DNA of 64,000 nt from Chondrosia reniformis (lineage: Eukaryota; Porifera; Demospongiae; Chondrillida; Chondrillidae), in contig OX359201.1 in assembly GCA_947172415.1 (NCBI GenBank), positions 5,940,501 through 6,004,500 of the forward strand, read 5' to 3'. A program made the translations under genes and the position numbers. The notes under the pieces are model-generated. The model made no database searches. It saw nothing but the letters and a program-made list of their open reading frames with translations, and was not told the origin of the DNA. Of this stretch, positions 3,374 through 56,882 are shown piece after piece; the first letter of the stretch is position 1; each line of letters begins with the position of its first letter.

Positions 3374-6300
3374 TTATAGTATGTGAGATGATTTATTAAT
3401 GCTTTGGAGTCTACGAATGGGTAGATTTCTGGTCACCATGGAAACAACTTGTTTCCTTCTGAATATTACAATAACTACAACTGCCACTAACACTACAGAG
3501 AACAAACTGAATCCTTTCTTGGATTTCAAGGTTACATCGGAAATACTTTTGGCCGCATCATCTGGTATCACAGGCTGTCTTGCGTAGTCCACTTTGACTG
3601 ATAAGAGATGACATCGTCCTTCATCTGCCTTGTGCAATGAATAAACTTGACACAAGAAGGTCAACACTGCATTATCGTTCCAAATCTTGTCATGTGACAA
3701 ATTAAATGCTGTACAAAAGTTCCTTTTCTCCTGTGATGGCTGATGACATTCAGAACATTGGTTGGGGGTGGGAAACTGTACTTTTGGGTGGGCGGGGTCA
3801 GTGCTAAGATCATCAGCCAATCGGCTGTTCACACTATTATGGGCACACCACGCCCACATAATCCCTTCAACATCGCTTTTCAGCTTCTGTTCCAAATCTT
3901 TAGACATAACTTTGTAATGCTTGCGACAGTCAATGCAACTGAAAAATTTTTCTATGAAACTTGACATGATTTTTAATGCATCCTTGCTTCCATATGGAAG
4001 AGTTCGAAAGGAAGATTTTGTTGCGGGGCTTTGATTTACAATTGGATGAGTGAATATGGTTGTTGAATGAAGAAGCATCCACACACTACAGGGATATCCC
4101 CTGTACTTCTTCTCACTTCCCCGACATGCCTGCCACTTTGGATCTGTGGGGAATACCCTCATCTCAGGATGAAACTGGAGAAATAGATAAGGCAGTACAT
4201 ATGAGCTGGGACTAAACATCACAAAACAATAAATGTTCTAAATTCCACTGCTACTACTCTAAGTGGGCAGTAACGATCAGAAGTAATATCCAGCAAATTG
4301 AGGAGACAGATTGGTGAGGTATGCTTGTCATAAAGCCTTAAGGACTCCCAAATAAGGTCAATGGCAGTGGGCATCAAAACTGATTGGTTTTGGCGTTCAC
4401 ATATTTTTAAGTACTAGCAAACACCAGTTTTTCTTTTTCATGTAGCATGAATAATCTGGGCAAGGCTAGAACAAAGTGTGCTTTATGTTCAAACACATTG
4501 CAACCTTGTAATACTTATTCTATTAACATTGTAACCAACAAATAGAAGAAAAATACTCTGTTTGTGTTATTAGAGGTAGCAGAAATATCTAAATGATTTC
4601 ATCTATCTGCAGTCCATTTAAATGGTCAGAGTGATAACCAAACCACAAGCACTTGCTCTCAGGCAGTTTGTACATATGCATAAGGGAGGATTGAGTGTAC
4701 ATGTACAAACCTCGTGACTTATCATTTTCAACCACTCTCGCTGGGTAATAAAACCATCTGCCTTAGTCATATGAAGCTGCTGAGCCAATATCTTCAGTGC
4801 ATTACCAGTGGACGGCATTATCTTAAGAAACACCTGTTAAATATACAGGAAAGATTATATTAAAAGTAGCACTCAGCTAGTGTATAATATACAAGGGAGA
4901 TTATATTAAAAGTAGCACTCAGCTAGTGTATAATATACAAGGGAGATTATATTAAAAGTAGCACTCAGCTAGTGTATAATATACAAGGGAGATTATATTA
5001 AAAGTAGCACTCAGCTAGTGTATAATATACAAGGGAGATTATATTAAAAGTAGCACTCAGCTAGTGTATAATATACAAGGGAGATTATATTAAAAGTAGC
5101 ACTTAGCTAGTGTATAATATACAAGGGAGATTATATTAAAAGTAGCACTCAGCTTGTGTATAATATACAAGGGAGATTATATTAAAAGTAGCACACAGCT
5201 TGTGTATAATATACAAGGGAGATTATATTAAAACAGTACAACAATATAAATACTACATACACTATGTCATAGAAATATATATAATCACTGAGAGATATCA
5301 TGCCTGACCAACCAAGTGACTGGAGACGATCTCTGGTTACTGTTTAATAGGACATCGGTCTCTCAACCAAGATCAGACTTTGGTTACTAGGTTGGTCAGG
5401 TGTAATATCTCCAAGTGATAATATAGCTTTTGCACTGGATTTGTGCATTTTTACTACGTATATACTAGTTACATAAATAATAGTAATAATTACAAATTAA
5501 TGTAAATGCTAATAAATAACAAACCTGTTCCAGCAACATTACAAACTGCAATAGACTCCCGAAGGCAGACCCAGATATCATACTATGAATGGGGATCTCA
5601 TGATGGAAGGCATAGCCAATGCCGTTAATCAAATCATCCATTGTGACACTATACGATATAACACACGAGGTGTTACAAAGATACATGAATAATCTAACAT
5701 TTTTCTTACATGCTACATCTACTTTATAGTAAAAGCCTATAGAGAACTAAATCTAGTGAGAGCTTTGGATGAGGATAGAGTTTTCTCCTTCTTCTCTTCT
5801 CCACTTGGCCAGGCAGCTGTTTCTGAGAATTCCATCTAGAAGTTGTAAGTTTTATGTTGTAAACGCAACAAATCAAATATAACTTTGGCATTCAAAAATA
5901 CACTGAAATCAAATTCACACATATAACCAGCCTAGGGGAGCTCCAACACATGTAAATATCAATCAACCATACAAAATAACTCCTCTCCCAACAACACTAG
6001 ATAGTTGCCATGTTTTAATCATGTATTCATTTCTTAGTAACCAGTACATGTGTTTGTATATGACTCTTTGAATATTCACCTTATGATTCAAATTCTAAAA
6101 TACCCTTATAATTGTTTTCATTTCTACTTCCATTTGCTACACTTGTCTCATATTTGCTAATATAACAATTTAAGTTAACTGAGCTTTGTTTCCTTTCTTT
6201 CTACTGTTATTTACAATTTTGAGGACAGAGTCCTATGGCTCACATAAGCCAACAAAGTGGCCAAGCAATTTGAGTGCAGAGGACAGTAAATCTATGAGTT

Positions 6301-9300: not shown

Positions 9301-9801
9301 TCTTAATAGAGCTAAGGTTTATCAGCTACTTTTATAAACGAAATATTGATTACTTTTAATTAACCTAACGCAGCTTGAAATAAGTAACTTTGTATTTCGA
9401 GGCTAATGGTAAGTCAATATATAAACATTGGTAAAACGATCTGTCGCCTTCGTTATTCGCTGGTGTTCCAGGGCCAGTTCCAATATCAGAGATACAGCAG
9501 CTAGGTATTACGAATGGAGTGAACTAAAATTAAAATGTGTTACTGTCCTACCTGTCACATCTTTGGCCACTCTCTTCCACGTAGGAGCAAAGTTGTGGCA
9601 GTGCCCGCACCAACTTGAATAAAATTCAACGGCCCAAGCGCTCTCACTGTTGGTCACCGCTTCAGTGACCTGGTTCCCTTGAAAACAAACAAGTGGATCT
9701 TCCTTTGAATAAAGTTGGCAGTCAGCTGTATAAAAACTTCCCCAGGACGCCAAGAAAAGGATGACCTTCATATACACTACAAACCCTTGGCCGCACGCCA
9801 T
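3374..9801 (-). CDS. QSOX: Quiescin sulfhydryl oxidase (QSOX), membrane-anchored
   Basis: Exons, 5' to 3' on the minus strand: 9801-9552, 8445-8345, 8284-8233, 8164-8068, 7808-7724, 7522-7440, 7125-6952, 5648-5525, 4833-4711, 4174-3374; every junction is in phase (629 aa). QSOX enzymes put disulfides into secreted proteins and pass electrons to oxygen. A short N-terminal signal sequence (ILFLASWGSFYTADC) precedes a thioredoxin domain with WCGHC (residues 64-68). A second Trx-like segment (VEEFPSVVIFHKEK) and a helical region follow. The last exon is a complete Erv/ALR domain: YPCSVWMLLH, CIDC redox pair (about 443-446), FAD-contact motif HNSVNSRL, CSEC (about 503-506). A C-terminal transmembrane helix (about 584-601) is followed by a basic tail. 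Two in-frame ATGs exist, 9801 and 9771; 9801 has the better context (AAAAATGG). Family identity is secure; the small exons at 8233-8284 and 7440-7522 are less certain than the rest. Confidence 0.92.
4846..5236. repeat. 46-bp minisatellite, about eight units, in a QSOX intron
   Basis: Units contain tatacaagggagattatatt and agtagcactcagctagtg. It begins only about 12 bp from the acceptor side of QSOX exon 4711-4833, so it abuts the splice region of that exon. Confidence 0.9.
5284..5419. repeat. Imperfect long hairpin in a QSOX intron
   Basis: Outer arms of about 30 bp pair with about four mismatches: 5284-5313 (atcactgagagatatcatgc then ctgaccaacc) against 5390-5419 (ggttggtcaggtg then taatatctccaagtgat). 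The loop is about 76 nt. It may be a small foldback transposon or an RNA hairpin; a microRNA precursor is possible but unproven. Confidence 0.55.
5688..5836 (+). repeat. Dispersed repeat R1, copy c
   Basis: Copy of the 79-283 element in a QSOX intron, about 40 bp upstream (in transcription order) of exon 5525-5648. It is truncated at the 3' side after ttctgagaattccatct. Confidence 0.7.
8507..8672. repeat. GC-rich minisatellite in the QSOX first intron
   Basis: About five alternating units of 34-39 bp carrying ggtggggagggg and agtggtggcccctccctgcc. The strongly G-rich plus strand could form G-quadruplexes. Its composition differs sharply from the AT-rich surroundings. Confidence 0.85.
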
Positions 9802-9917
9802 TTTTGTCAACAAACGGATAGAGAATCCAACATATGTTTCTACCCACAAACTGAGCAGGAAAATTAATGGAAAACATAGCAACCTTGTAGGCACGCCATT
9901 TTTTCAACAAACGGATA
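9793..9917. promoter_or_regulatory. Duplicated element at the QSOX start region
   Basis: Two nearly identical blocks, 9793-9820 and 9891-9917, share gcacgccattttt and caacaaacggata with one base deleted. On the QSOX strand each reads AAAAATGGCGTGC; the proximal copy supplies the probable start codon at 9801. The motif resembles the YY1-type AAnATGGCG element that overlaps start codons of many animal genes. Confidence 0.5.
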
Positions 9918-10117
9918 CCGTTACTGTAGGAAAATTTACAATGTTTGTATATAAACCGTGAAATACAAAGTGAAAAAATACTTTATTCGTGTAAGATTGC
10001 ATTGTTAAAATGATAGAGAGTTATGATCGTTAGATAACGAGTGAATAACCGGGCACCATACTGCTGCTGAGCGCACGTTACTCACTCGATAGTTACAAAT
10101 TTGTATTGCATGCATGT
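9802..10117. other. Intergenic spacer between QSOX 5' end and CLOCK-like 3' end
   Basis: 316 bp holding the distal copy of the duplicated AAAATGGCG element (9891-9917) and AT-rich sequence. It must contain the QSOX promoter. No further gene is seen. Confidence 0.5.
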
Positions 10118-11821
10118 CTAGTCAGGAGACAAAGGAAGATCACCAAATAAGGAAGGCTGACTTGTAACTGGAAACTGGGGGTCATCTTGTCCATTCAATA
10201 AAGCAGAAATATCCCCATTAAAGAAGTTTAAGGACGGTACATCAACGCTGTTTGGCGTCTCCATAGTTGATGAGACGGCTGTTGTCAAGCTAGAGTGACT
10301 TGCGAGGTGGTTTCCCTTATTGTAATCCATTCCCATCATTTGAGGCATCAATGATCCGATGTGATTTGATGAGGGTGCTTGTGCCGGTTTGGGTGGTTTT
10401 AGGTGTATGAGCATATTTGCCATTTCCATGAAACTCTTTCTCTCTTGATTTTGAAGGTTTTGTTGTTCCAAGTAAGATTTTTGAAGCGAATACAGCTCTG
10501 AGTTCTTCTTTTCTAGCCGCTGTTCCATTTCCTTTAGCATCTTCTCCATAGCTGCCAGTTTCGTGTCCATTGAAGTGGAGGAAGTGGTCAAGTTACTACC
10601 ACCATTGGACACTTCTTTGCATCTAACACTTTTCTCTACAAACAGATTCTTTGGAGATCTATCTGGTAAGAAGTCGTCGTGAATCTTGAAACGGTCCTTG
10701 AGTGGAACTTGATCCGTACCAATTATCTGAGTATTTAAGAATATGTGATCAATCTCATTGTTCCACGGATTACACGTAATATAACCTTTGGTTCTGCACC
10801 AAACCCATCGATTCCCCTTTGTAATGAAACGGTAATATTCTGTGGTTCCAACTCCCTTCTTCAAAAAGGTCTCCATTGAGCTTCCAAAAGCATCCAAGTG
10901 ATAGGGGTCAATAAATTCAAATATAGACATTCCCACCAGTTCCCTTTCTGTGTACCCCAAAACCGCTGTTACATGTTTTTTGACCTCTAGAAAAATTCCT
11001 TCTTTAGAAATACGACAGCTATACGAATATTCCTCTTCACTCTCTAAGGTAGCTACTTCCATTGTCTTAAGTGAGCAATTCACGCCCACTAGTGCTCCAG
11101 ATTGTCCGACATCGAAAGTGGTTGGCGGCTTCACGGTCATGCTAATGTCGGGGCTCCCCTGAGCAAGACCATCCAGATCCCACTTTCGCAAAAGAAATTT
11201 ACTCTTAGTGGAGATATAGACTGGATTGCCCTCGGCGGACATCCATGCGGCCTCTATATTGAATGTAGAGTACTTTCTGTGAGAGGGTTCTGGTCTCAAT
11301 AGGGCGCTATCAAACTGCTGACACAAGGGGAGGAGGACTGAAGAGTAGAATGCGTTGTGCTCCTTGTGGTTGATAAACTGCTGCATCTCCTTCCCGACGT
11401 AGGTACTTGACGGGTTACCGAGGACGGATAGGACCGTATCAGACGCATGTAGCACTTTACCGGGCGGAACAAGCAGGAAAAGACACGCATCCATCGCGTC
11501 CAATATATATTCCGACCACAAAGGGGCCCCTGCAGACAGGCACCTGGCTCTGCCTGATTCTTTCGATTGGGATCCTTTATCGGCCACTTGATCTAAATAA
11601 TTATTGTATAGACGAACCAGCGATCGTGCTTCACGGAGAATTGATAGTTTATCCAACTTTCTCTGCACATTTCCAGAAAATCCTTCAATAAGAGATATCT
11701 CGGACATCAGTTCTTCAAAGTATGCGTTTGTTTCCTTTCGCCGCTTCACTTCAGTTTGTTTTCGTTTCCCAGCTGTTTTGGACTGCGGCGAATTACAGTC
11801 ACTGTTTAAATCACTCGCCAT
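10118..11821 (-). CDS. CLOCK/NPAS2-like bHLH-PAS transcription factor, intronless
   Basis: 567 aa in one exon. The bHLH (about 17-72) has basic residues KQTEVKRRKETN, matching the E..KRR pattern of CLOCK, NPAS2 and BMAL that reads the CACGTG E-box, and helix 2 KLDKLSILREARSLVRLY. PAS-A spans about 102-215 (DAMDACLFLLVPPGKVLHAS). PAS-B spans about 265-368 (ISKEGIFLEVKKHVTAVLGY, YYRFITKGNRWVWC), where the YYRF.TKG..W.W pattern is characteristic of the CLOCK/NPAS2 group. A coiled coil (about 419-465) and a Ser/Pro-rich tail follow. It would act in the nucleus as an obligate dimer, probably with an ARNT/BMAL partner. The SRC/NCOA coactivators have a similar bHLH, but the PAS-B fits CLOCK better. 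The absence of introns among intron-rich neighbours suggests a retrocopied ancestor. The 5' side faces the small gene at 12095; an E-box lies 99 bp upstream. Confidence 0.85.
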   Translation of the reverse strand: MASDLNSDCNSPQSKTAGKRKQTEVKRRKETNAYFEELMSEISLIEGFSGNVQRKLDKLSILREARSLVRLYNNYLDQVADKGSQSKESGRARCLSAGAPLWSEYILDAMDACLFLLVPPGKVLHASDTVLSVLGNPSSTYVGKEMQQFINHKEHNAFYSSVLLPLCQQFDSALLRPEPSHRKYSTFNIEAAWMSAEGNPVYISTKSKFLLRKWDLDGLAQGSPDISMTVKPPTTFDVGQSGALVGVNCSLKTMEVATLESEEEYSYSCRISKEGIFLEVKKHVTAVLGYTERELVGMSIFEFIDPYHLDAFGSSMETFLKKGVGTTEYYRFITKGNRWVWCRTKGYITCNPWNNEIDHIFLNTQIIGTDQVPLKDRFKIHDDFLPDRSPKNLFVEKSVRCKEVSNGGSNLTTSSTSMDTKLAAMEKMLKEMEQRLEKKNSELYSLQKSYLEQQNLQNQERKSFMEMANMLIHLKPPKPAQAPSSNHIGSLMPQMMGMDYNKGNHLASHSSLTTAVSSTMETPNSVDVPSLNFFNGDISALLNGQDDPQFPVTSQPSLFGDLPLSPD

Positions 11822-12094
11822 ACCGCTACGAGAGATCGTTATAACTGATCAGTAAGACCTTTAGATCCAAACCTGACATTTATATCGGTAAACCTTACTG
11901 TCCCATAACGTAACATTGGCACGTGATCTAGAAGTGTATTATTATTGTAGAAACCTCATGTATATATCATATATCATTTAATTTGCTTTTATACAGTAGA
12001 CTAGTAATAGCTTCAGTATGTATATCACACATCAATGTTGGAAAGTGCTGTCTTGTGTCACGCCTACCGCCACGCCCACTTACCAAATTAAAGG
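11822..12094. promoter_or_regulatory. Divergent promoter region with CACGTG E-box (11920-11925)
   Basis: 273 bp separate the start codons of the CLOCK-like gene (-) and the small gene (+). It contains one CACGTG at 11920-11925 (tggcacgtgatc) and a GTTTACC element at 11881-11893 that is shared with the promoter of the PAS-only gene at 13666. CACGTG is the site predicted for the CLOCK-like protein itself, so autoregulation is possible. Confidence 0.5.
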
Positions 12095-12349
12095 ATGTCT
12101 GACGATAAGCAATTGTCTAGAAGATCAAGCTTCGAGACCAAACCGACGAACCAGCAGTGGGGCACTATTGTTAAAACTAACATGCACCTGGGGCACAGAA
12201 AGGCTTCGAAAGAGGAAATATCTGAAATAACCGAGAGACTTTCTGCAACTTCAGGGCAACCAGGAGCCAAGCCGCCACCTGATAATAAGCGCATTGGCGC
12301 TTTAAAAGATCAAGGAATAACGAATTCGTATGCTTGGAAGGGATGGTGA
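12095..12349 (+). CDS. Small intronless hypothetical protein, 84 aa
   Basis: ATG at 12095, stop at 12349. The product is hydrophilic, with a Ser/Lys-rich N-terminus (DDKQLSRRSSFETKP), a central helix-prone segment (KASKEEISEITERLSA), a Pro-rich linker (GAKPPPDN) and a C-terminal ITNSYAWKGW. There is no signal peptide or membrane segment. It is not recognised. Support for coding: a full ATG-to-stop frame with non-repetitive composition, a divergent promoter shared with the CLOCK-like gene, and a 129-bp tail before the stop of the next PAS gene. Possibly a ciliary or cytoskeletal small protein, but I have no motif to prove it. Confidence 0.55.
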   Translation: MSDDKQLSRRSSFETKPTNQQWGTIVKTNMHLGHRKASKEEISEITERLSATSGQPGAKPPPDNKRIGALKDQGITNSYAWKGW

Positions 12350-12478
12350 TTTATTATTCGTGCAAGGAGTTCCCCGGACCTTGTAAATGAACTTGGTGAT
12401 AAAACTTTAAAATTCATTGTAAACATTGTATTAATTGGTTTCGATTTAAGAGAAATTGTATGTGTTATAGTTAGTTAG

Positions 12479-13666
12479 CTAGTAGGGGTGGTCCTTTACA
12501 GTTGGTAGTTCGTAAGGTAGGTATAGTGGATTTACAAGACACCTTTCTGAAGCTGAAAGTTGATGTAGTGGAACCAGGTGGGTATTGAAAAAAAAGTGTT
12601 CTGATTCATTTGTCCAAGGATTGACAGATAAAAAACACCTTGACTGGCACCAGATCCATTTCCCACCCTTTGTCATTAAGCGATACGGCTTTGTCTCTGC
12701 AAATCCATTCTCAATCATTTTGGATATTGCATCTCCGAAAACATTGACATGATAGGGATGAATAAAATCAAAGACAGACATATCCACAATCTCCTCCACA
12801 GTATAACCCAACAATATGGCGGCATGGGTGTCTACTGAGGCTATAATACCATTTTTCTCTATTCTTATATTGAAAGAATAGTCACACCCATAATCAGCTA
12901 ACAAGAGGTCCCTGCCGTCTGATACTCCCTTAGCAGGGATACTGGTTACCATAAAGGTATTTTTGAATAACAAGTTATCAGTAATATGAGATTCCACTTT
13001 TTTATCACTGTCATCACTTTGTCTGGAAGTTAAATCTATGACTTTCTTCTCATCTTGACATGTTGATGGTAGCTTCTTTAAACGACATAAGAAGGACTCA
13101 AAATTAATTGTCCGTCCTTCCAGATTATCATTAAGCTTGAAATTGAGTGGTAGTGGTACTTCGTTGTTTGGAGAGACATCTGATTTGGACAAGGATTCTA
13201 AAATATTCTGCAATTGTTCGGAAATATCGCCAATTCCTTTGTCTCCAGCCACTACTGACTCGGGGGAATAAGCTAATAACGAGTAGAAGGTTGAAGAAGC
13301 GTGTATGATACGTCCTTCTGACGTTATCAACAAGAGAAAGGCGTCCGAAGAGTCGAAGAATATGTCTAGCGCCTCGCAGTGAGGCAGGCTCCATCGCTTG
13401 CCTGTAATTGTTGTCCCAGATAAGCCGCTCTGTCCTTCTTTGACCAAGACTTTGTATGATCGGATAAGGTTGATGGTGTTCCGTAGTGTGCATATAGCCG
13501 AATCGGTACTCACCGATCCTGTAGATTGTGGGGAAGTCCTTAGCGGGGTGACATATTTATCGAGCTCCAAAAATACACGTTTTGCTACAAGCCTTTTAGA
13601 AATTTTTTCGGGTGATCCTCTTTCACTCGCCTCTTCCTTAGTCTCTCTATATGTAACGTCGGACAT
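12479..13666 (-). CDS. PAS-only paralog A of the CLOCK-like factor, basic region lost
   Basis: 395 aa, single exon. Residues about 95-155 are a PAS-A remnant (SSDAFLLLITSEGRIIHAS). PAS-B spans about 262-365 (RIEKNGIIASVDTHAAILLG, FIHPYHVNVFGDAISKM, RLMTKGGKWIWC), colinear with the neighbouring CLOCK-like protein. What aligns with HLH helix 2 survives as INLIRSYKVLVKEG, but no E..KRR basic region precedes it; instead there is a short Lys/Arg patch (KISKRLVAKR). The coiled coil and tail of the CLOCK-like protein are absent. Expected to dimerise through PAS without binding E-boxes directly, hence a candidate modulator or dominant-negative partner (inference). Paired with the paralog at 14888-16012, with which it shares two almost identical DNA blocks. 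Confidence 0.8.
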   Translation of the reverse strand: MSDVTYRETKEEASERGSPEKISKRLVAKRVFLELDKYVTPLRTSPQSTGSVSTDSAICTLRNTINLIRSYKVLVKEGQSGLSGTTITGKRWSLPHCEALDIFFDSSDAFLLLITSEGRIIHASSTFYSLLAYSPESVVAGDKGIGDISEQLQNILESLSKSDVSPNNEVPLPLNFKLNDNLEGRTINFESFLCRLKKLPSTCQDEKKVIDLTSRQSDDSDKKVESHITDNLLFKNTFMVTSIPAKGVSDGRDLLLADYGCDYSFNIRIEKNGIIASVDTHAAILLGYTVEEIVDMSVFDFIHPYHVNVFGDAISKMIENGFAETKPYRLMTKGGKWIWCQSRCFLSVNPWTNESEHFFFNTHLVPLHQLSASERCLVNPLYLPYELPTVKDHPY

Positions 13667-14887
13667 ATATAATAATGATTTGGTTCCAAGCTCGCCGAGA
13701 AAGATAATCAGAGTTTACCGATTTATAGTAGCTAGCAATGTCGGTAGGCAAACAGCTAATATAAAAAGGTGTAATTGATTAAGCAAAGGTTAAAGTACTC
13801 GACACTGTAGGGGCCGTTATAATTACAAGCGGAGTTGCGATAATAAAACGCTGCTAGGGTACTGAAAGATCGTAATTTAATAAAATGGAGGGCTCCAAGC
13901 GCTTAATTTCAAACGGAAACCGTAATCCTACCAATTACCACCAAGTAACGCTGGCGGTGGTCCCTTAAGTGTAGATCCCATCAGCACTTCAAGTCTACAT
14001 GTAGTCCAGTAGTATGTGGTAAAAATATTACGCATGCAGCACACAATGATAACACTGATAATTTCACTTTACACACATTGAAGTCCGAATATCATAATAA
14101 CTGAGACGCATACCAAGCGCAATCAAGACCATAATTTAATAAATCCATTTTTTTAAAATATGCATTTTATTTTATAATTAATTATGTATGATTTCTTACC
14201 GTTAACTACTGTACTTGGCACCCCTGCTATTTATCCTATATATTTTAATAATGAACACAATAATTTCTATTTTCATTTTTATTCTCTAATTATATTACAT
14301 ATATTTTAATGCATGGGATGTTTGTAAAATAACCTTTTGGCTAATACAGGACCATCAACCCAAATAAGGTGTTGATTGTTGTGTTTTCCATTTTAAGGCT
14401 TAGTACTAAGCCTAGAAAACAGATTTGTATTGTTCATATGCATGTTTACCTATAGGAATATAATTTCAAAAGATTATTCGTGTTCTTTTGATGGGAAACA
14501 AATTTGTGGCCAATTTATAGTGAAATTCATAAAGTATCTTATTTATGTCCCTTTTTATAATCCTCTGATGTACTTCAACTGTACATGCATATGATCATTG
14601 GTGGCTTTGGTGCAATCCCATCCCTTTCTTGATACGTATCAAAAATATATGTATCTATACATTTGCATCCACCCATCTTTATCAATATGTAAATAATTTT
14701 TTAAAAGGCATAAAATGTATTTTTCGAGTATATATGTAACTGTTTATTATAATATTTTTAAAGCAGACCTGGAGTTGACTGAATATAACACACATTATGC
14801 ACATTAAGCAAAAATGCAAATTAATGTGATGGTATAACTTTATCATAGCCAAATTAAGAGGAATAGTAATAAGAAAGGTCAATGTAA
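13667..14887. other. Spacer between PAS-only paralogs
   Basis: AT-rich 1.2 kb. Near the start of paralog A it carries gtttaccgatttata (13713-13727), matching an element upstream of the CLOCK-like gene. No CACGTG was found here, in contrast to the promoter of paralog B. No gene recognised; short open frames look random. Confidence 0.5.
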
Positions 14888-16012
14888 TTAGTTTGCAGTA
14901 ATTTCTTGTTGTTCGTAAACAGCCCTAATGGGGGACACCAGAGGATTCCAGCAGTCAATACGTTGCATAACTGGCAACTGGTATGGGGGGATTAGTTTGG
15001 TTTTCAAAATGCCATACTCTGCATCATTTGTCCACCAATTAGCTGAAATAATACATCTTGACTGGCACCAGATCCATTTCCCACCCTTTGTCATTAAGCG
15101 ATACGGCTTTGTCTCTGCAAATCCATTCTCAATCATTTTGGATATTGCATCTCCGAAAACATTGACATGATAGGGATGAATAAAATCAAAGACAGACATA
15201 TCCACAATCTCCTTCACAGTATAACCCAACAATATGGCAGCATGGGCGTCTACTGAGGCTATAATACCATTTTTCTCTATTCTTATATTGAAAGAATAGT
15301 CACACCCATAATCAGCTAACAAGAGGTCCCTGCAGTCTGATACTCCCTCTATAAATAGACCAGTAACCAAAAAGACCTCTTTGAAAATACAGGATGTGTC
15401 CTTATTCATTTCATCAGTTGGACTTTTGAGGGGAAGCACCTTATTTACCTGGCATTTAAAGGCATCATAAAATGGAAGGATTTGTTTGTCGTTATCCTCG
15501 CTACTTTGCCTGAAATACAAAGTTACCAATTTTGAAGTCCCACTTTTCTGCTCCTCTGAAAAGGAAGAAATGACAGACCGCAACTGTTCGGAAATATCGC
15601 CAATTCCTTTGTCTCCAGCCACTACTGACTCGGGGGAATAAGCTAATAACGAGTAGAAGGTTGAAGAAGCGTGTATAATACGTCCTTCTGACGTTATCAA
15701 CAAGAGAAAGGCGTCCGAAGAGTCGAGGAATATGTCTAGCGCCTCGCAGTGAGGCAGGCTCCATCGCTTGCCTGTAACTGTTGTCCCAGATAAGCCGCTC
15801 TGTCCTTCTTTGACCAAGACTTTGTATGATCGGATAAGGTTGGTCGTGTTAGCCAAGTTATCCAAATCATCTCCAGGTCCAAGGAACTCCTCCAAATTCA
15901 AATTGTCCTGGTGCTCATCATCAATCAAAACGAGGGTTTCGCTCAAGACGTTTGCCAGCTGCTCAACCTCGGTATCCAGGGTTGGTCGATCTACATGTTC
16001 TTGATCGGACAT
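14888..16012 (-). CDS. PAS-only paralog B of the CLOCK-like factor, acidic N-terminus
   Basis: 374 aa, single exon. The N-terminal 55 residues are acidic (LDTEVEQLANVLSETLVLID, DDEHQDNLNLEEF, GPGDDLDNL) and unrelated to paralog A. From NLIRSYKVLVKEG onward the two are alike: PAS-A segment SSDAFLLLITSEGRIIHAS, a divergent middle, then PAS-B RIEKNGIIASVDAHAAILLG and RLMTKGGKWIWC. The C-terminus diverges again. There is no basic region, coiled coil or intron. Like A, it is a candidate PAS-dimerising regulator without DNA contact. Its upstream region has four CACGTG E-boxes, so expression under an E-box-binding factor, possibly the CLOCK-like protein next door, is a direct prediction. Confidence 0.8.
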   Translation of the reverse strand: MSDQEHVDRPTLDTEVEQLANVLSETLVLIDDEHQDNLNLEEFLGPGDDLDNLANTTNLIRSYKVLVKEGQSGLSGTTVTGKRWSLPHCEALDIFLDSSDAFLLLITSEGRIIHASSTFYSLLAYSPESVVAGDKGIGDISEQLRSVISSFSEEQKSGTSKLVTLYFRQSSEDNDKQILPFYDAFKCQVNKVLPLKSPTDEMNKDTSCIFKEVFLVTGLFIEGVSDCRDLLLADYGCDYSFNIRIEKNGIIASVDAHAAILLGYTVKEIVDMSVFDFIHPYHVNVFGDAISKMIENGFAETKPYRLMTKGGKWIWCQSRCIISANWWTNDAEYGILKTKLIPPYQLPVMQRIDCWNPLVSPIRAVYEQQEITAN

Positions 16013-16075
16013 TCTTCTTAGTTACTAGTAGCCTTGATACTGGGACTTGAGCAGCAAGGCGAAATTTAAATCATT

Positions 16076-16175
16076 CCTTCACGTGTTTACAAGGTAGTGT
16101 ATGCTACGTTGTAAACACGTGAAGGTTGCTGTCTCCGGTTCGCGTGCACCGCCTTCGGGCACGTGCAGCCACGTG
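16076..16175. promoter_or_regulatory. E-box cluster with a 50-bp palindrome upstream of PAS-only paralog B
   Basis: Four CACGTG sites at 16080-16085, 16116-16121, 16160-16165 and 16170-16175, all 64-163 bp upstream of the start codon at 16012. The first two lie in an inverted repeat (16076-16125) with perfect 17-bp arms ccttcacgtgtttacaa and ttgtaaacacgtgaagg. The last two are 10 bp apart, one helical turn. Each arm also overlaps a forkhead-like GTAAACA core. CACGTG is the canonical site of CLOCK:BMAL-type and of Myc/USF/MITF bHLH dimers. Confidence 0.75.
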
Positions 16176-16659: not shown

Positions 16660-19600
16660 TCAGAGTACTGTGCTCCCTGTTTGATTCCTTCTGGCCTCCC
16701 TCCTCTTCCTAGCTCTCAGATCAAATCCAATCAAGAAAAAGAGTCCAAGGAAGAGGAAGGCACTGAGCAAGTATACACCAGGGAATGTGATCAATAATGC
16801 CCACATGTAATTACCATGTAGTGCGCTTTTGAGTGGGGTGACAAGGAGATTGAAATTCCCTCCAATGACTGTGATAACAAAGAGATAGATGGCTATAGAC
16901 ACAGTCTTTATGCGTGAGGGTACAATGTCCACTACCAGTGCCAGGGTCACTCCCACCCACATTTCCCCAATAACATTAGAACCAATCAGAATTAGAAAGC
17001 ACCCCGGAGAAGACGGTATCAAGAGTGCACCAGCTGCAAATGGAGCGGCCAAAAGCTATCAGAAAAAAATGAAAAAGATACATGAGTTACACAAGCTCTT
17101 TGTCATTTTCACATGGCTGCACTTTAGCTGCCTAACAGACCCGGGTACCCATATCACAGACCCGGGTACCCATATCACAGACCCGGGTACCCATATCACA
17201 GACCTGGGTACACATATCACAGACCCGGGTACCCATATCACAGACCCGGGTACCCATATCAGAGACCCGGGTACCCATATCACAGACCAGGGTACCCATA
17301 TCACAGACCCGGGTATCCATATCACAGACCCGGGTACCCATATCACAGACCCGGGTACCCATATCACAGACCCGGGTACCCATATCACAGACCCGGGTAC
17401 CCATATCACAGACCCGGGTACCCATATCACAGACCCGGGTACCCATATCACAGACCCGGGTACCCATATCAGAGACCCGGGTACCCATATCACAGACCCG
17501 GGTACCCATATCACAGACCTGGGTACCCATATCAGAGACCAGGGTACCCATATCAGAGACCTGGGTACCCATATCAGAGACCAGGGTACCCATATCAGAG
17601 ACCTGGGTACCCATATCAGAGACCAGGGTACCCATATCAGAGACCTGGGTACCCATATCACAGACATATGATGGGTATGGTGTAGCTATTACAGCAATTC
17701 TCACCTGGCTGATTACCAAGACCCAGATTCTCCAGTGTGAGGCTGCAAAGTACCTGAACTGATACTTTTTGGCCACGTATACAACCAAATCAGAAACCAG
17801 TCCACCCACAAATGCTCCTACTGATCCACCGACAAGTGGAATCCAAGACATGTATTTAGTAATCTCATCTTTGGTAAAATGTCGCCACAGTATAAAGTAA
17901 TTTTCAGTATTGTACGCCCACACATATCCACCAGCATTTCGGATCCCTCCAGCCAGCAACAGTAACCACATACTGTAGGACAGTACAAAGGTGTTCATTA
18001 TTTCCTTAAGATAGGACAGAAGTTGATCGGCCCTTCGCTTAGGTGGTTGAGATACAGATTTATCCGTTTGCTCAGCATCAAGAGGCTCATTATCATCAGC
18101 TTTAGATATAGTAGACTGTTCTTCTTTTGTAAATTTCTTCTTCTTCTTCTTCTTTCGGTTCTGAGGATCTTCTTTAATGGTAAGCAAGATCAGTGGTGTC
18201 ACAGCAATGCCCATTAATGCACTTATAAAGAAAACCCATCGCCAACTCAATACTTTCACAATCTGGTTTCCCAGGACAAAGGCGAGACTGTAACCAAGGT
18301 AAATTCCCCAGTTATAAACTCCCAGAGCACTGCCTCTCAGCTCCTGCAGTAAAAGTTATTGGCATATTTTAACAATCATTTCAATCCCCCAACAAGAGTA
18401 TCTTCTCCTACATACATTCTACAATAAAGACCTATAGGGAACTAAACCTAGTGAAAGCTTTGGACTTTAATTATTGCAATGCAAAAAGTTATAAGCTTCA
18501 AATTAACAGATATTATATATTAAAAATATATTCCCCATTAAATATATTACAAGACATTTAGAGCTTGTTGTGCATACATTTTACTAGTGACAGGGGTTAC
18601 AGAGTATAGTCTGACCAATAAAATACATTAACACGTCTTCACACCAATTTTACATACAATTAAGATAATTAATTTGTATTATAATAATAACACATGGTAA
18701 GAATTACAGATGGACTTACTGGTACAAAATAATCAGCTATAAGACTTGTGGCAAATGGAGTACACCCAGCAGCACTGTAGACAGAAAACAATCCTATATC
18801 ACACACATCTTCACAGACATGTTATGAAAACAATTTCCAATCAGTTTCATCCTTATAATGACAAGTATTAGCAAAAAATAGGGGAACTTGAAGTTCTAAA
18901 GCCAATCTTAAAGCATTGATATCATCAACATTAAACTCTGGATATTAAGTATATTAGCATATAATAAGTCAATTAGCAGTGCATTATAAAATGTATGTAT
19001 TAGAAGACATACCGGTTTCTTTAAAATTTCAAAAAATAAGTTATCTTTAAATTTACAATTTCACACTTATACGTACATATAATACATAATGTCATCTCAT
19101 TCAACAGTCTACATATTAACAAGTAAATCAAGTAAAAACTTGGGGGGCTACCCCCTACACTTGAATAATTGGTCACTTTACTGGGCTTATACAGTTGTAA
19201 TATTAATGATTCTGGACACTTTAGCGTTTAATAATAGCATATGAATCCATACTATATATACATATACAAATATGTATATAGATGAGACAAGCTTAACAAC
19301 CAGAAGTAATGAATAGTTTTCTAACAATTCTTACAACCCTATTTGTCACTCAACAACCATAATAAGCATGGGATTTGAAACTCCTCCCCAATTGGCTACT
19401 TACAACTCAAAAAGTTAAGCACTAAACTTTTCAGAGGTTAACAAGAGATGTGAATGTGTACACATACTTACCATATGGCAACAAGCATCCTCAGTATGAC
19501 CAGCTCCCAGTATGTTTGCGCAAATCCTATGATACCAGTAAACACACTCAACAAAAACAAACAGATTCCCAACAACAGTTTTCGACTGACAAAATCTGCC

Positions 19601-50758: not shown

Positions 50759-53076
50759 CTAAACAAAAACATCGTCTTTTTCTGTGAGAGTGTTCACCAA
50801 TGGCTTGACAGGACTGAGGAAGGAGTCACTTCCTGCATGAAAGCTATAGGAACATGCTCTGAGGTAGGGCTCCGAGAAGGAGTCTGAAGGATCAAAGGAA
50901 GGGAGAGGGGCTACAAGGTCATGATTGTAGAGGCTGTGAAGGTCCTGTGAATAGCATATCTGAGTTGTTACTAAGGTGTTGTAGCCGAGATCTGTGAAGT
51001 CCCATGGCATTTCCTGGTAATTGTCTTGTTTTGGGCAGGAGTGAAATCTGGATCTGTTTGGACAAGAGGAGGTGGGCAAGTTGGAGGTTCTCTCTCTTGC
51101 AGTGTCACCTTCACTTTCAAACCCTACAAGTAAGCACAAACACTGTTACCATGACGACATATGTAACACATACAAAGGTGAAGATTGATGTGTAAATGAT
51201 GTAAATAAATGTATTATATTTGACTCTACAACATAATTTTCCCATGAGATTGAACATTTAAACCTAAAGGTATCTGTTCATCATGTATATATATAACAAT
51301 CAATCCTTATCAGTACATATATATATTAGATATAGCTTAGTCATCCAACTCCATATAGATGCATGCATTCCTGATTCTTTACCTGACTCAATGCTTGTCA
51401 GACTGTTGCAGGTGCTCCTTGGGCTACTGGATGGGGAGACGGAGCCAAGCATTACTACCTTCTCCATTGTGGTAGACAGAGACTTGGTTCTCTTCACATG
51501 GCCTCCACATTCTCCTCTCGTAGACTCTTCTCTGAAAGCTTTGGCATATGGGTTGTTCTCTATCTTTAGTTGGGTCATCTAATATATACAATTTAGAGAT
51601 TAATTATAGAATAATGAGAAACTTAATTTAGAGAACATGTAATAGATTTCAAAGAGAGCTGAATAAATATAAATTGACTCTGTCATTAGGAAATTATCAA
51701 ATGATGTTGTACTGTTATTGTTAAGGGATAAAATCCAGACAGTCAATCAGTTTTATGGTTTGATACACATACATATATAGGGTTGTTATAATATTAATAT
51801 AACAGTTAATAAAAGAGTAATATTAATTTAACTTTACATAATACCTGGTCCAGTAATATATAAAGTTTCTATTTAGATATTTAGATACAATTCCTTTAAA
51901 GAGCATCTAACACTCATACCTTTTCATTCTGGTAAGCTGTGACAGCCATAAAACTAGTCTCTGGGAAACTGAATGACTTTTCTAATCCTCTTTCTTCATC
52001 ATAAATGGTAATACAAGGAAGATACTTTTGCATTGAGTGAAGAACCATCTGTATAAAATATATAGGAACAAAATGAAGGTCTAAAAGTATACATGAAAAA
52101 CCTATTACACCATTTCCTACATGCTATGCCTACTCTGTAAAAAAGCCTATAGGGAACTAAACCCATGCATGCCTAATGAACAACACATGTCAAGAGTGTA
52201 GAACTATATGTGTACATGATTATCACTTACACGATCGCTTGTCTTATCCAGTGGCAGGTCTCCCTTTGTGTTTGTAAGTTTGATGAACTTGAAAGATAAT
52301 GGTTTCTTCATCAAGTGACATCCACTATTGGGGCAGTCGGGATAAGTGTAGGTACACGACAAGTGTTCCTTTAGCTTGTCAGCTGTTCCTGACACCACCC
52401 AATGGTCACCTGAAAACTTGTATCTAAGGTTGTCTGATGGAGGGATCGCCAACTTGATAGAGTATTTCCGGCCGGGATCCAAACCAGATAAAGAGATTTG
52501 AATTGTGGGGAACATTCGTCTTCCATTTTTGGTAATGACCATTTCTGTGCCAATTTCACTGAATTTCTGCCAAAGGTCTCTATTCTCCAGATACACCTGC
52601 CATGCTCCAACGCTACCATCGCCGTAGCTTTCAGCCCTGCTGAAGGGTGACGAATTTCTAAATCTCTTTCGAAACAATTTGTGGTTGGAACTGATTGGTG
52701 ATCTTCGCCTGGATCCAGGGGAGGGAAATTCGATCATACTATCGTCCGAATCGTCATTTCTAAAAAGTTCGGAATAAGATTCCTTTGACGTGATTGGTGT
52801 GTTGCAGCACCTTTTCGTCCATTTAGCAATAGCCATTCTCGGTTCCAAATTTTCTCTGAGTGACATATCTTCTATATTGAGGTTGGATACGCTGGTTGGC
52901 CGATGGGCGCCAGTTTCATCACTACCTGTCACATCGTCCGCCGTTTTCGTCAATAAAAATGCAGTTGAGACGGCTGCAGTTATTTTCTGTGGGTCGAGCA
53001 AAGGGATCCAGCTGTCTTCTGAATCACTCATCCGATAGATTGGAGCTGAACGCTTAAGGGAAAACAGTTTTAGCAT
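50759..53076 (-). CDS. Divergent T-box transcription factor 1
   Basis: Exons 53076-52231, 52048-51920, 51578-51383, 51123-50759; 511 aa (496 if the second ATG, 53031, is used). The T-box DNA-binding domain (about 159-343) starts YLENRDLWQKFSEIGTEMVI and has TKNGRRMFP, KFIKLTN, VLHSMQKYLPC, FMAVTAYQNEKMTQLKI and NNPYAKAFRE. It departs from the usual core in several places: CHLMKKPLSF where most have an HWM motif, and MQKYLPC where most have MHKYQPR. Ser-rich regions flank it, and the C-terminus is short with no recognised repression or activation motif. Orthology to a named T-box class cannot be decided by eye. It faces a second T-box gene at 54013. Confidence 0.9.
52096..52166 (+). repeat. 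Dispersed repeat R1, truncated copy
   Basis: Contains catttcctacatgctatgcc and agcctatagggaactaaacc; the rest of the element is missing. Lies in the first T-box 1 intron. Confidence 0.6.
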
Positions 53077-54012
53077 AAGACAACCGAAGTAGCTTCGCGA
53101 TTAATTTATGCATGTGGGCGTGGCGTAGCCTATACAGGCTTAAATCATTATCATGTATTTGGCGCTAATGTGATTTTATGCGTGCAAAAACAACTTTGGA
53201 ATACCAAATAAGAGTTCAGTTAACACTTAAAAGAGTAAATTTCGACAGCTTTCACGTATCTCACTCTTAATTGAATCCATCTACTGCAGACTGATATGAA
53301 ACGTATTGCATGACTACTGAGTGCAGGACATGCAACTGTATCATTGTAAATAAAATTTCAATCTAGCCAAGGAATACTTTCTTTTCGTTACATATTAGCT
53401 TCAATCAGCAAATGTCATTTTTCCACTGATGCATTTGATAATTGTCATAATGTAATTAAGAGGAAAAATTGCATGTTGACAAATAAATCTATAGGTAATA
53501 CATAGTCTATTATACTTGAAAGATAATGAACCTATATATATGTCGCAATTATAACATATTCAGCATTTATATAACTGATATTAACTGAAGCAGATAGCCA
53601 CTGGCTATACATCTGCATAATGCAGCTTATTTAATAACTGGCTAGAAGATTTGATATCCTAAGTGTTGTAAATGATTCATTTTCATTTGTAATTTGCAAA
53701 TGTTTGAGGAGTCGAAATGAATTGGTGCATTTTCATTTACACCAGTACATTAATGGCAACCTAGTTTTAAAGATTATTTCCGTTTTTTTACGGAATCCAT
53801 TTCCCGTATATTGATAATTAAGCTCCACCCCCGACACCTCTACCTGTAGCGTTCCTTTCACACTCCAAGCACCGTTGATTGTGCGAATCTGGTGAGCTAC
53901 ACGTTCCTGACAGCATCAGTGCTAACGACTGCAATTTGTCCGCAACGATCAAGAGAAGTAATATTCAGAATCAAAAATCTTACAGCCAGCAGCTCCATTA
54001 CCACGAATCCAA
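53077..54012. promoter_or_regulatory. Shared upstream region of two head-to-head T-box genes
   Basis: 936 bp between the start codons. AT-rich, with a GC-richer 150 bp next to T-box 2 that is probably its 5' UTR. I see no T half-site palindrome (TCACACCT type) and no CACGTG. Any shared enhancer here would act on both genes. Confidence 0.45.
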
Positions 54013-56882
54013 ATGGCCCAAGTCTCTCCTGTTCAGTGCGTGTCTACGATGTCCAAGAGAGTAGAAAATTGGGAAGAGAATATGAACCCGCAGCTAGGAA
54101 GCAATTACGCCATTGAAGAAGCAACTGAGCACAGAGAAATACTGCAGTGTAAGACCTACACAATGACGACGGGAACGGACGAATCCGCGAGTCACCCGGG
54201 ATCGCCAACGGAACCGCACAATTGCCGCACTAGCACTCTCGTCATAACCGCCTATGAGGGTCAAGACCACCAGCGCCCCCTGCCAAGCATCCAGCAGCCA
54301 GCCCCTCCCGGCCAAGTCTTTAACCCTTCCATATCAGATCAGCCCTCTTGTATAGCCTCAGGAGAAGGAGGAGCCAGTCTGCCCCTCCCCAGTCCGATGA
54401 GTGAGGAAGCGTCTGTTCCTCCACCTCCATATGGTAGCACTGAAGTTGTGACTCAGATGAATACCTGCTGCAAGCAAAACAAGTCACCTGTCTCAGCCAC
54501 CATCCACTGCAACGAGGGCGATATCCACATGCAACTGGAGAACCAGGACCTGTGGCTCAAGTTCCATTCAGTGGACACTGAGATGATCATAACAAAGTCA
54601 GGAAGGTGAGTAATAAAGTTTGACCTTTAAGAGGTCATGAAGCTACTTCCCAATGCATAATAAGATGTAGTTGGCAGATGTAAGGCTTGCAGATGTATTG
54701 TCTATATATGTACATTCTACCTCATGCCTTGCAGTAGGTGTTGATTGCTCAAGTTAAGTCACAACATATTTAGATTACAATCAACTGAGCTAGCCATGCT
54801 CATTTAGACATTATCATCCTCCTTCACCTCATTATTAAATGCCTTCACTTAACAGCAATTTGTATAAATGTCAATATCTCCAAAAGGTTGCATTGACTGT
54901 CTGTGGTCCCAAGTGACTCACCATCACCAATGACAACATAGACAGAACAACTTACAACCATTTAAATATACTCAATGTTGATCAGTTACATGGATCTTAG
55001 TAGTCTTGGTACATATATAGCCCAGAGAAGGCTTTGGACACATTAGTGTGTAATGCATTCCAGTGATTATTCACTTCTTCATAAGTATAATAAATATATC
55101 AATTTTACTATTTGTAATAGAGTAAGGATTCCTTCTAACTGTGTTGAACCTATCTTTTGAAAGGAACATCTTTCAACTTTTAGAGCATCTTTATTTTACT
55201 ATTTGTCTGATGTTCTTTAGGAGGATGTTTCCCGGTTTGTCTGTGTCTGTGTGGGGATTGGAGTCCGATGTCAAGTACACCGTTCAGTGTGAAATGGTCC
55301 CTACATCCAACAATCGCTTCAAGTACATCAACTCCAAGTGGACCACTGTAGGCAAGGCAGAGGTTCACGACTCAGAGACACTCACCTTCCAACACCAGGA
55401 TTCCCCAGCCAGTGGAAAGCAGTGGATGAGAGACAGGATATCTTTCAAGAAGATAAAACTGACTAATGACAAGAATAGCAAAAAGGGATATGTAAGTTAA
55501 TAATTTGCATGACCTTTGCATCAAGATAGCTATTTTTAAACCATTATTATAATTGTAAGATAGTTTAAATTGTCTTCATTGACTGGACAGCCATCTTTAT
55601 GTGCATTCATAAGATATTTAGATGCATGTTTAGATTATTAATGCATATTACCTAATTTGTTTAACAAATGTTAAGTAAGTATATGTATGCATAATCCATT
55701 TCCTGTAGGTATGGTGGGAACATGTATATGGGACCAAAGATACATACAAATATATAGAATAGACTATTGTCCTATATATATGGAACCTTTATATATGTAT
55801 AATATCTTAACATTGTCTCCCTTTAAATTAAATATATAGGTTGTGTTGAACTCTATGCACAGATACCAGCCTAGGATCTATGTCTTCAAGCATTTGAGCA
55901 GAAAGGAGATGGAGAAGGTCTATTCTGTTGATTTCCCCCAGACTCAGTTTGTAGCAGTGACTGCATACCAGAATGATCTAGTAAGCACTTGTCAGAACCT
56001 TGACCTCGTGCTCATGCAACTCAATGTTTTCATAGGCCATTGTCTCCTCATTATATCCATCTATCTAGTATAGGCTATATATATAGTATAGGCCATGTAT
56101 ATATCCATCTATCTAATAGGCCATGTATATCTTTTCTATTCTTGATGTGCATAATACATACATATGCTAAACCATGCATACTGTATATTACCTGCATTTG
56201 AATTACAGGTGACACAACTCAAGATTGACAACAATCCATTTGCAAAGGCCTTTCGTGAGTCTTCAGAGGATATGTAAGTTGAATTAAAATGTATGGAAAA
56301 GAATTTATATATGATATACGTATGATACATGCTCTATACCTATGCATATGTCTTTATTAATGAAATCCATCATATATATACACCTGTTTTGTATACAGGC
56401 CTTATGGATACGCTACAAATGGTGTGATGATGACCAACCCCTGGGGGGGACACTTGGGGTCACCTGCAGAGTACACGCCTCTCTCCCCCATCTCCCCACT
56501 TCCTCAATTTGGAATGGCTTTTGGACCATGGGACTCCAACAATCGGTCACCTATCTCCCCAAGCAGCACAAACACAAAGAAAGAGAGGTCTATCGCCCCC
56601 TGGCAGTTAATGCCACTCGAGAGCCCTCTATCTGCCACTGGAAGCCACTCCCCCTTTGTGTTCCCACACATGTCAGCTGCCGCCAATTGTGAAGACATGA
56701 GAAACACAGTCCAGGGACATTGGGTGACAGGAAGTCCCTCACTTCCGGCCCTCACCTCACTTCCTGTCAACTCGTGTGCTACACTTCCTGGTGGCAGAGT
56801 TCATCAATCCCATCTCCAGATCAGTGTAAACACTTCCCCTAGTGTTCATCCTATGCAGCAAACGACTCCTCAAATGAACTGA
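54013..56882 (+). CDS. Divergent T-box transcription factor 2
   Basis: Exons 54013-54605, 55221-55491, 55840-55980, 56209-56273, 56399-56882; 517 aa. The N-terminus is Ser/Pro/Gln-rich and Gly-containing. The T-box (about 171-356) shows LENQDLWLKF, ITKSGRRMFPGLSV, PASGKQWMRDRISFKKIKLT, VVLNSMHRYQPRIYV, FVAVTAYQNDLVTQLKI and NNPFAKAFRE. It keeps the canonical WMR and RYQPR positions and is thus closer to the T-box consensus than its neighbour. The C-terminus is rich in Ser/Pro (SPISPSSTNTKK, LPALTSLPVNS). Intron positions within the T-box appear equivalent to those of T-box 1 (before the VLNSM segment and before the TQLKI segment), supporting an old tandem-inverted duplication; T-box 2 has one extra intron, next to RRMFP. 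Confidence 0.9.

Follow-up and report, generated by a model that had tools for sequence, protein, structure and literature searches.

A CLOCK-like gene and two tandem PAS-only paralogs in the sponge Chondrosia reniformis: putative dimerisation modulators with a possible E-box feedback arm

Three tandem genes, here called A, B, and C, lie on chromosome 13 (C13) of the kidney sponge Chondrosia reniformis, a demosponge, in the stretch of DNA analyzed here (the window, 64 kb, C13:5940501-6004500; positions below are those of the window unless a chromosome is named). All three are on the minus strand, and the coding part of each is a single exon; the mean for the species is given as 7.2 exons per transcript (PMC12181767). 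Gene A (10118-11821) encodes a CLOCK-like basic helix-loop-helix (bHLH)-PAS protein of 567 aa in an open reading frame (ORF) at 10118-11848 whose first Met is at 11821, and genes B (12479-13666; ORF 12479-13714, Met at 13666) and C (14888-16012; ORF 14888-16021, Met at 16012) encode PAS-only paralogs of 395 and 374 aa. The initial annotation of this DNA had described a complete bHLH-PAS protein and two shorter intronless neighbors, and the long minus-strand ORFs bear it out. On the same strand, each gene is preceded by a TATA or TATA-like word (TATAAA at 11879-11884, 58 bp upstream of the A Met, and at 13722-13727, 56 bp upstream of the B Met; TTTAAA at 16065-16070, 53 bp upstream of the C Met) and is followed, 124-140 nt past its stop, by AATAAA (9982-9987 for A, 12350-12355 for B, and 14743-14748 for C). 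A, B, and C are almost certainly real genes.

Protein A matches the Pfam HLH family at 23.7 bits (cut-off 20.7) as well as PAS_11. Its basic region, RKQTEVKRRKETN, aligned with RNKSEKKRRDQFN of mouse CLOCK, shows the E..RR basic pattern, and the residues that read the E-box are present. Its best solved structure is mouse CLOCK (E 1.6e-21, 79.7 bits), with ARNT second at 66.0 bits. Numbered from Met-1, PAS-B covers approximately residues 266-376 and a coiled coil approximately residues 418-472. A structure model of A, which deserves fair confidence in PAS-B and the coiled coil only, predicts a helix at 418-472 after PAS-B (block predicted local distance difference test score, pLDDT, 55-82). The coiled coil would be the counterpart of CLOCK exon 19. 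A resembles CLOCK/NPAS2 (mouse CLOCK, 8osj/4f3l) in its bHLH, PAS-A, PAS-B, and coiled coil after PAS-B, but differs in its short tail (567 aa in total), the lack of a polyQ run, and its single exon.

Searches with single proteins turned up just one outside relative of A, P0002. It has 888 aa, comes from an ENA contig of at most 5019 bases, and carries a bHLH, PAS domains, and a tail rich in Q. Its best solved structure is CLOCK, from the bHLH through PAS-B, A and P0002 are mutual best matches, and a stretch resembling the A coiled coil is present in P0002 (E 5e-6). The protein database searches returned 2, 2, and 3 matches, the query proteins themselves included, and in one of them scoring was limited to the 8000 candidates with the most shared words. 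A bacterial-type multidomain PAS protein among the matches (P0005) was set aside, and the 69 pattern matches found on scanning prokaryote genomes included no relative. Among the partial lists of literature matches, no work on the three genes was found, although its absence is not thereby proven.

The genome searched comprised 117,379,552 bases in 15 contigs (the assembly is described as 117.37 Mb, with 14 chromosomes and a mitochondrion, in PMC12181767). With A as a query, we recovered A itself, B, C, and three marginal exons at approximately 17 bits; with P0002, we recovered A (170.9 bits), B (97.9), C (74.0), and, from the next gene, one exon at 27.8 bits. A is the sole CLOCK-like gene found in the genome by these searches. 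A second, intron-bearing CLOCK elsewhere was considered and rejected, as nothing beyond that one 27.8-bit exon was found in a six-frame search that may miss short exons. A copy of A with two substitutions (P0001) is encoded on a contig of 7,076,433 bases, distinct from C13 (6,903,244 bases), and for P0004, which is identical to C, the longest contig is also one of 7,076,433 bases (7.08 Mb), again distinct from C13. A second assembly thus also carries intact A and C.

B and C match only PAS families in Pfam, with no HLH. Their best solved structure is nevertheless mouse CLOCK, at E 1.6e-11 and 46.9 bits for B (BMAL1, 42.4) and at E 3.3e-10 and 42.5 bits for C (ARNT, 32.8). When the N-termini of B and C were compared with four bHLH regions, none of the 8 comparisons was clear of shuffled sequences for a basic region or helix 1; a vestigial basic region and helix 1 in B were rejected, as the best local score against A was reached by 929 of 1000 shuffles and that against P0002, the best of the 8, by 55 of 1000. 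Helix 2 is kept (RNTINLIRSYKVLV in B vs REARSLVRLYNNYL in A), as are, clearly, the front half of PAS-A and PAS-B, the latter with 38-39% identity to A over approximately 115-125 residues. The back half of PAS-A is barely alignable between B and C, so that the alignment with A from helix 2 through PAS-B reported in the initial annotation holds except in this half. Unlike CLOCK/NPAS2, B and C have neither a bHLH nor a coiled coil nor a long tail: 32 and 41 residues, respectively, follow the PAS_11 match, and the coiled coil of A falls in a gap of the alignment. The absence of these parts had been claimed before and is upheld. A structure model of B was worthless (mean pLDDT 37). As far as sequence can tell, the loss of the basic region and helix 1 appears real, and B and C are very probably unable to bind DNA by themselves.

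In a PAS-B tree of 14 taxa, A, B, C, and P0002 formed one group with support 98.9/99, inside which A, B, and C grouped at 85.5/80; the position of mouse CLOCK itself was supported at only 53.5/50. Topology tests were made with six taxa, both on a combined alignment from helix 2 to PAS-B and on PAS-B alone. Two trees placing B and C outside the CLOCK-like group were rejected by the approximately unbiased (AU) test (0.00014-0.00015 combined, 0.0005 for PAS-B). Together, the 98.9/99 branch and these rejections (AU at most 0.0005) place B and C inside the CLOCK-like group, as the initial annotation held. Within this small sample it is firm that B and C group with A, apart from the ARNT, HIF, and PER sequences tested, and there is a strong probability that they are CLOCK-derived.

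One rival is that B and C are true PER orthologs. Their architecture of PAS domains without a bHLH would fit, and with the PAS-B of B alone the lead of CLOCK almost disappears (42.0 bits, vs 41.3 for BMAL1 and 41.1 for Drosophila PER). However, the 98.9/99 branch unites B and C with A and P0002 and leaves out Drosophila PER (the one PER sequence included, by its PAS-B only). Moreover, B and C hold little beyond PAS-B, and a Period_C domain had no match in B or C, nor in the genome, the genome search being made without a positive control. PER orthology was consequently rejected and is highly improbable.

The order of descent within the group is less clear. On the combined alignment, (A,(B,C)) was the best tree (AU 0.971), ahead of A with P0002 (0.059) and (B,C) with P0002 (0.038); on PAS-B alone the values were 0.877, 0.019, and 0.155, respectively. 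It is likely, on these trees, that B and C came from A after the split from the P0002 lineage, and an origin by duplication of A in the sponge lineage is favored, not proven. The earlier proposal of a duplicated CLOCK-like gene is thus supported by the CLOCK-like membership and by the union of A with (B,C), but descent from A itself is unproven.

Comparison of B and C at the DNA level revealed a mosaic. Tract 1, covering helix 2 and the front half of PAS-A (13210-13480 in B, 15580-15850 in C, both minus strand), has 6 differences in 271 nt (97.8% identity), and tract 2, covering PAS-B (12606-12930 in B, 15024-15348 in C, both minus strand), has 14 in 325 nt (95.7%). The tract edges are sharp, and nothing else aligned between B and C by blastn at E 0.001. 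Synonymous divergence (dS) rises from 0.05 and 0.08 in codon blocks over the tracts to approximately 1.9 and 1.8 in the segments after them, where nonsynonymous divergence (dN) is 0.93 and 0.70; these saturated dS and dN values are rough. The likeness of B and C to A noted before holds, and that between B and C takes the form of two near-identical tracts amid saturated sequence. The simplest account would be recent gene conversion between old paralogs, restricted to helix 2 with the front of PAS-A and to PAS-B. Because of this conversion, B and C are not independent witnesses in the trees. A protein differing from B at two residues, 251 and 280 (P0003), is encoded on an ENA contig of 1369 bases, which may be a transcript; at both positions it has the residue of C, reflecting either more conversion or two changes peculiar to the haplotype of the window.

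The mosaic could also mean that B and C are weakly constrained, spent duplicates with no conserved function, alike merely from recent conversion. The high dN outside the tracts (0.7-0.9) and the erosion of half of PAS-A are what this would predict; yet the frames of 395 and 374 codons have stayed open where the sequence is saturated, promoter and poly(A) signals are in place, intact near-identical proteins occur on other contigs, and PAS-B is still 38-39% identical to A. We regard spent duplicates as quite improbable. The same open frames, signals, and intact copies led us to reject a pseudogene reading, and B and C look functional.

Four CACGTG E-boxes (16080-16175, starting at 16080, 16116, 16160, and 16170) lie 68-163 bp upstream of the C Met. 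They are four of the nine in the 64-kb window, where 4.7 were expected (sd 2.0), and none of 5000 dinucleotide shuffles of the 300 bp upstream of C reached four. The next ORF upstream of C (16660-17055) runs in the same direction; it has no Pfam match itself, but by eye it looks like the last exon of an MFS transporter, for which there is a Pfam match at 17132-18355, so the E-boxes most likely belong to C. The boxes at 16080 and 16116 sit one in each 16-nt arm (ccttCACGTGtttaca) of an inverted repeat at 16076-16125. Each arm joins its E-box to a TGTTTAC word, which we take to be forkhead-like. A single CACGTG (11920-11925) lies approximately 100 bp upstream of the A Met, between A and a small plus-strand ORF (12095-12349). 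In Nematostella, one canonical E-box is reported 225 bp before NvClock (PMC2943474).

As a control, 20 other loci (146,789 bases after two nested loci were dropped), picked for bHLH/PAS genes and not at random, held 20 CACGTG, with no three within 100 bp. Genome-wide, CACGTG triples with gaps of 10-40 bp occurred 159 times; the 50 of these that were listed are all tandem-repeat arrays, unlike the cluster at C. Pairs with a 4-bp spacer, as in the two distal boxes of C, occurred at 11 places vs 5 for the control. Clustering of CACGTG per se is not rare in this genome; the notable point is a non-repetitive cluster at the promoter of a CLOCK paralog. The 4-bp spacing is near canonical, not canonical.

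CACGTG is common to several bHLH classes, and the boxes of C might serve another binder, of the MYC/MAX, USF, or MITF/TFE type, so that growth or metabolism, rather than A, would control C. Genome-wide, 18 HLH matches were found exon by exon, that of A ranking 17th by score, and the 4-bp spacer is not the 6 or 7 bp preferred by CLOCK:BMAL1, for which 3 bp is also reported on nucleosomes (PMC12424780). On the other side, the cluster stands before a gene paralogous to A itself, and core clock targets are described as typically having tandem E-boxes (PMC12424780). We consider another binder somewhat unlikely.

Partners for A are available. Clock and ARNT/Cycle-like genes had already been noted in sponges (PMC2943474), and the C. 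reniformis genome encodes ARNT/BMAL-like genes on C3 and C5, a HIF/EPAS-like gene on C1, and an unplaced bHLH-PAS gene on C2, all with matches split over separate exons. The ARNT/BMAL-like gene on C3 has 60% identity to mouse BMAL1 in the bHLH, and a candidate partner for A is therefore present. The PAS exons of this C3 gene occur twice, approximately 13 kb apart (L032-L034, C3:694-713k), and two more partial PAS-B copies are found on C8 (L041 at 1520k and L043 at 1534k), the latter with in-frame stops. At least two cryptochrome (cry)/photolyase genes are also present, one of which (L050, C6:6661037-6661627) has no introns, as with A, B, and C, its 563 codons forming one open frame.

From this anatomy, a mechanism can be proposed. 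A would act as a CLOCK-like activator, pairing with one of the two ARNT/BMAL-like proteins and binding CACGTG. An intronless copy of a CLOCK-like gene, most probably A itself, would have been duplicated in tandem to give B and C, which would have lost the basic region, helix 1, coiled coil, and tail while retaining helix 2 and the PAS surfaces. Through PAS-A and PAS-B they could occupy ARNT/BMAL or A in dimers unable to grip DNA, lowering E-box output as dominant negatives. A:ARNT might then switch on its own inhibitor C via the four E-boxes, giving a PER-like negative loop, with B, which has no E-boxes, as an arm that is constant or runs on different timing. As the remainder diverges, gene conversion would keep B and C closely similar in the parts used for interaction. 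That B and C are inhibitory is a reading towards which we lean slightly. The best explanation as a whole, in which they are dimerisation modulators of A or ARNT/BMAL and C may close an E-box loop, has in our view a little less than an even chance. The four E-boxes upstream of C lend the feedback idea support beyond that in the initial annotation, and feedback through C is nonetheless put forward tentatively. A full sponge-built PER-like limb, with A activating C, and C with B blocking A:ARNT in the daily or light/oxygen timekeeping of an animal with no known PER, seems unlikely.

B and C might instead have a job other than repressing A, sequestering cryptochrome, sensing a ligand or redox state, or serving as a cytoplasmic scaffold, with PAS-B binding its target without forming dead dimers. 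PAS-B is their best kept domain and is under conversion, and the Trp of an NPW/NWW motif, aligned to the HQW of mouse CLOCK, is retained by all three proteins. In mouse CLOCK this Trp contacts cryptochrome, and the genome has its cry/photolyase genes. Since helix 2 and the front of PAS-A are also kept and converted, which points to binding of a bHLH-PAS partner, we find such a job rather unlikely and retain dimerisation modulators as the preferred explanation.

Several observations weigh against duplication from A and an E-box loop through C. Site-pattern counts made with P0002 did not significantly favor A with B (19 vs 14, p 0.24) and likewise for C (18 vs 13, p 0.24), and little of the back half of PAS-A is conserved. 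Nine CACGTG in 64 kb is only a mild excess, reached in 5 of 100 shuffles; the lone E-box of A has no significance on its own, at least one being present in 273 of 5000 shuffles; and within 1 kb upstream of B there is no CACGTG. Because they lie in the arms of one inverted repeat, the boxes at 16080 and 16116 are not independent, and the 159 triples compare with 312 for a reversed-pattern control. The approximately 490 bp upstream of the first Met of the 563-codon cry/photolyase frame also hold no CACGTG, and there is thus no sign of a general E-box clock. In Amphimedon, PAR-bZIP and cry2 are reported as the only clock genes with diel expression, and in Aplysina the same two cycle, higher at noon (PMC12879404); as far as these accounts go, a cycling CLOCK loop is not favored.

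A daily role is, on these diel data, just one option. In an anoxia experiment with Tethya, one of the strongest increases was that of a cryptochrome, and each of the six bHLH-PAS genes was raised somewhat (PMC5800844), which makes an oxygen or redox role an equal option.

B and C can be compared with several known inhibitors. Like ID proteins and inhibitors of the HIF3A/IPAS type, they are proposed as makers of inactive dimers. In those systems, a paralog without a working DNA-binding half forms such dimers; ID proteins keep the HLH and have no PAS, and IPAS keeps the bHLH. Like PERIOD, B and C are PAS proteins without a DNA-binding part, but they are apart from Drosophila PER in the tree and end 32 and 41 residues past PAS_11. 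PERIOD proteins inhibit CLOCK:CYCLE without binding DNA and are upregulated by it (PMC2943474). A precedent is PASD1, a mammalian cancer/testis antigen and CLOCK homolog reported to bind CLOCK:BMAL1 and suppress it via a coiled coil mimicking CLOCK exon 19 (PMC6406328). B and C are likewise predicted to be CLOCK-derived and lack a bHLH, but they have no coiled coil, leaving only a PAS-based route open to them. They also belong to another lineage, where the two copies lie in tandem, appear to have undergone gene conversion, and in one case follow a promoter with E-boxes. Given PASD1, the independent invention of an activator/PAS-inhibitor layout put forward initially has to be toned down.

The origin of the negative limb of the clock is an open question for non-bilaterian animals, PER not being reported outside Bilateria in the account consulted (PMC2943474). 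If C does repress the A that drives it, a sponge would have built a delayed feedback loop by duplication and loss of the DNA-binding end, in parallel with mammalian PASD1. The locus would also offer a clean natural case of concerted evolution confined to dimerisation domains.

The plus-strand ORF at 12095-12349 (84 aa) is divergent from A, shares with it a 270-bp upstream region and the E-box, and has no Pfam match at E 0.01. Downstream of A, a thioredoxin-like stretch with WCGHC (9508-9903) and an Erv1/Alr domain exon (3377-4237) probably belong to a quiescin sulfhydryl oxidase gene. A minisatellite at 16889-17685, inside or beside the MFS transporter gene, has long open frames on both strands, and these repeat ORFs are mechanical. 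Finally, two divergent T-box exons, at 52204-53100 (minus) and 53962-54609 (plus), lie approximately 860 bp apart and are perhaps a head-to-head T-box pair.

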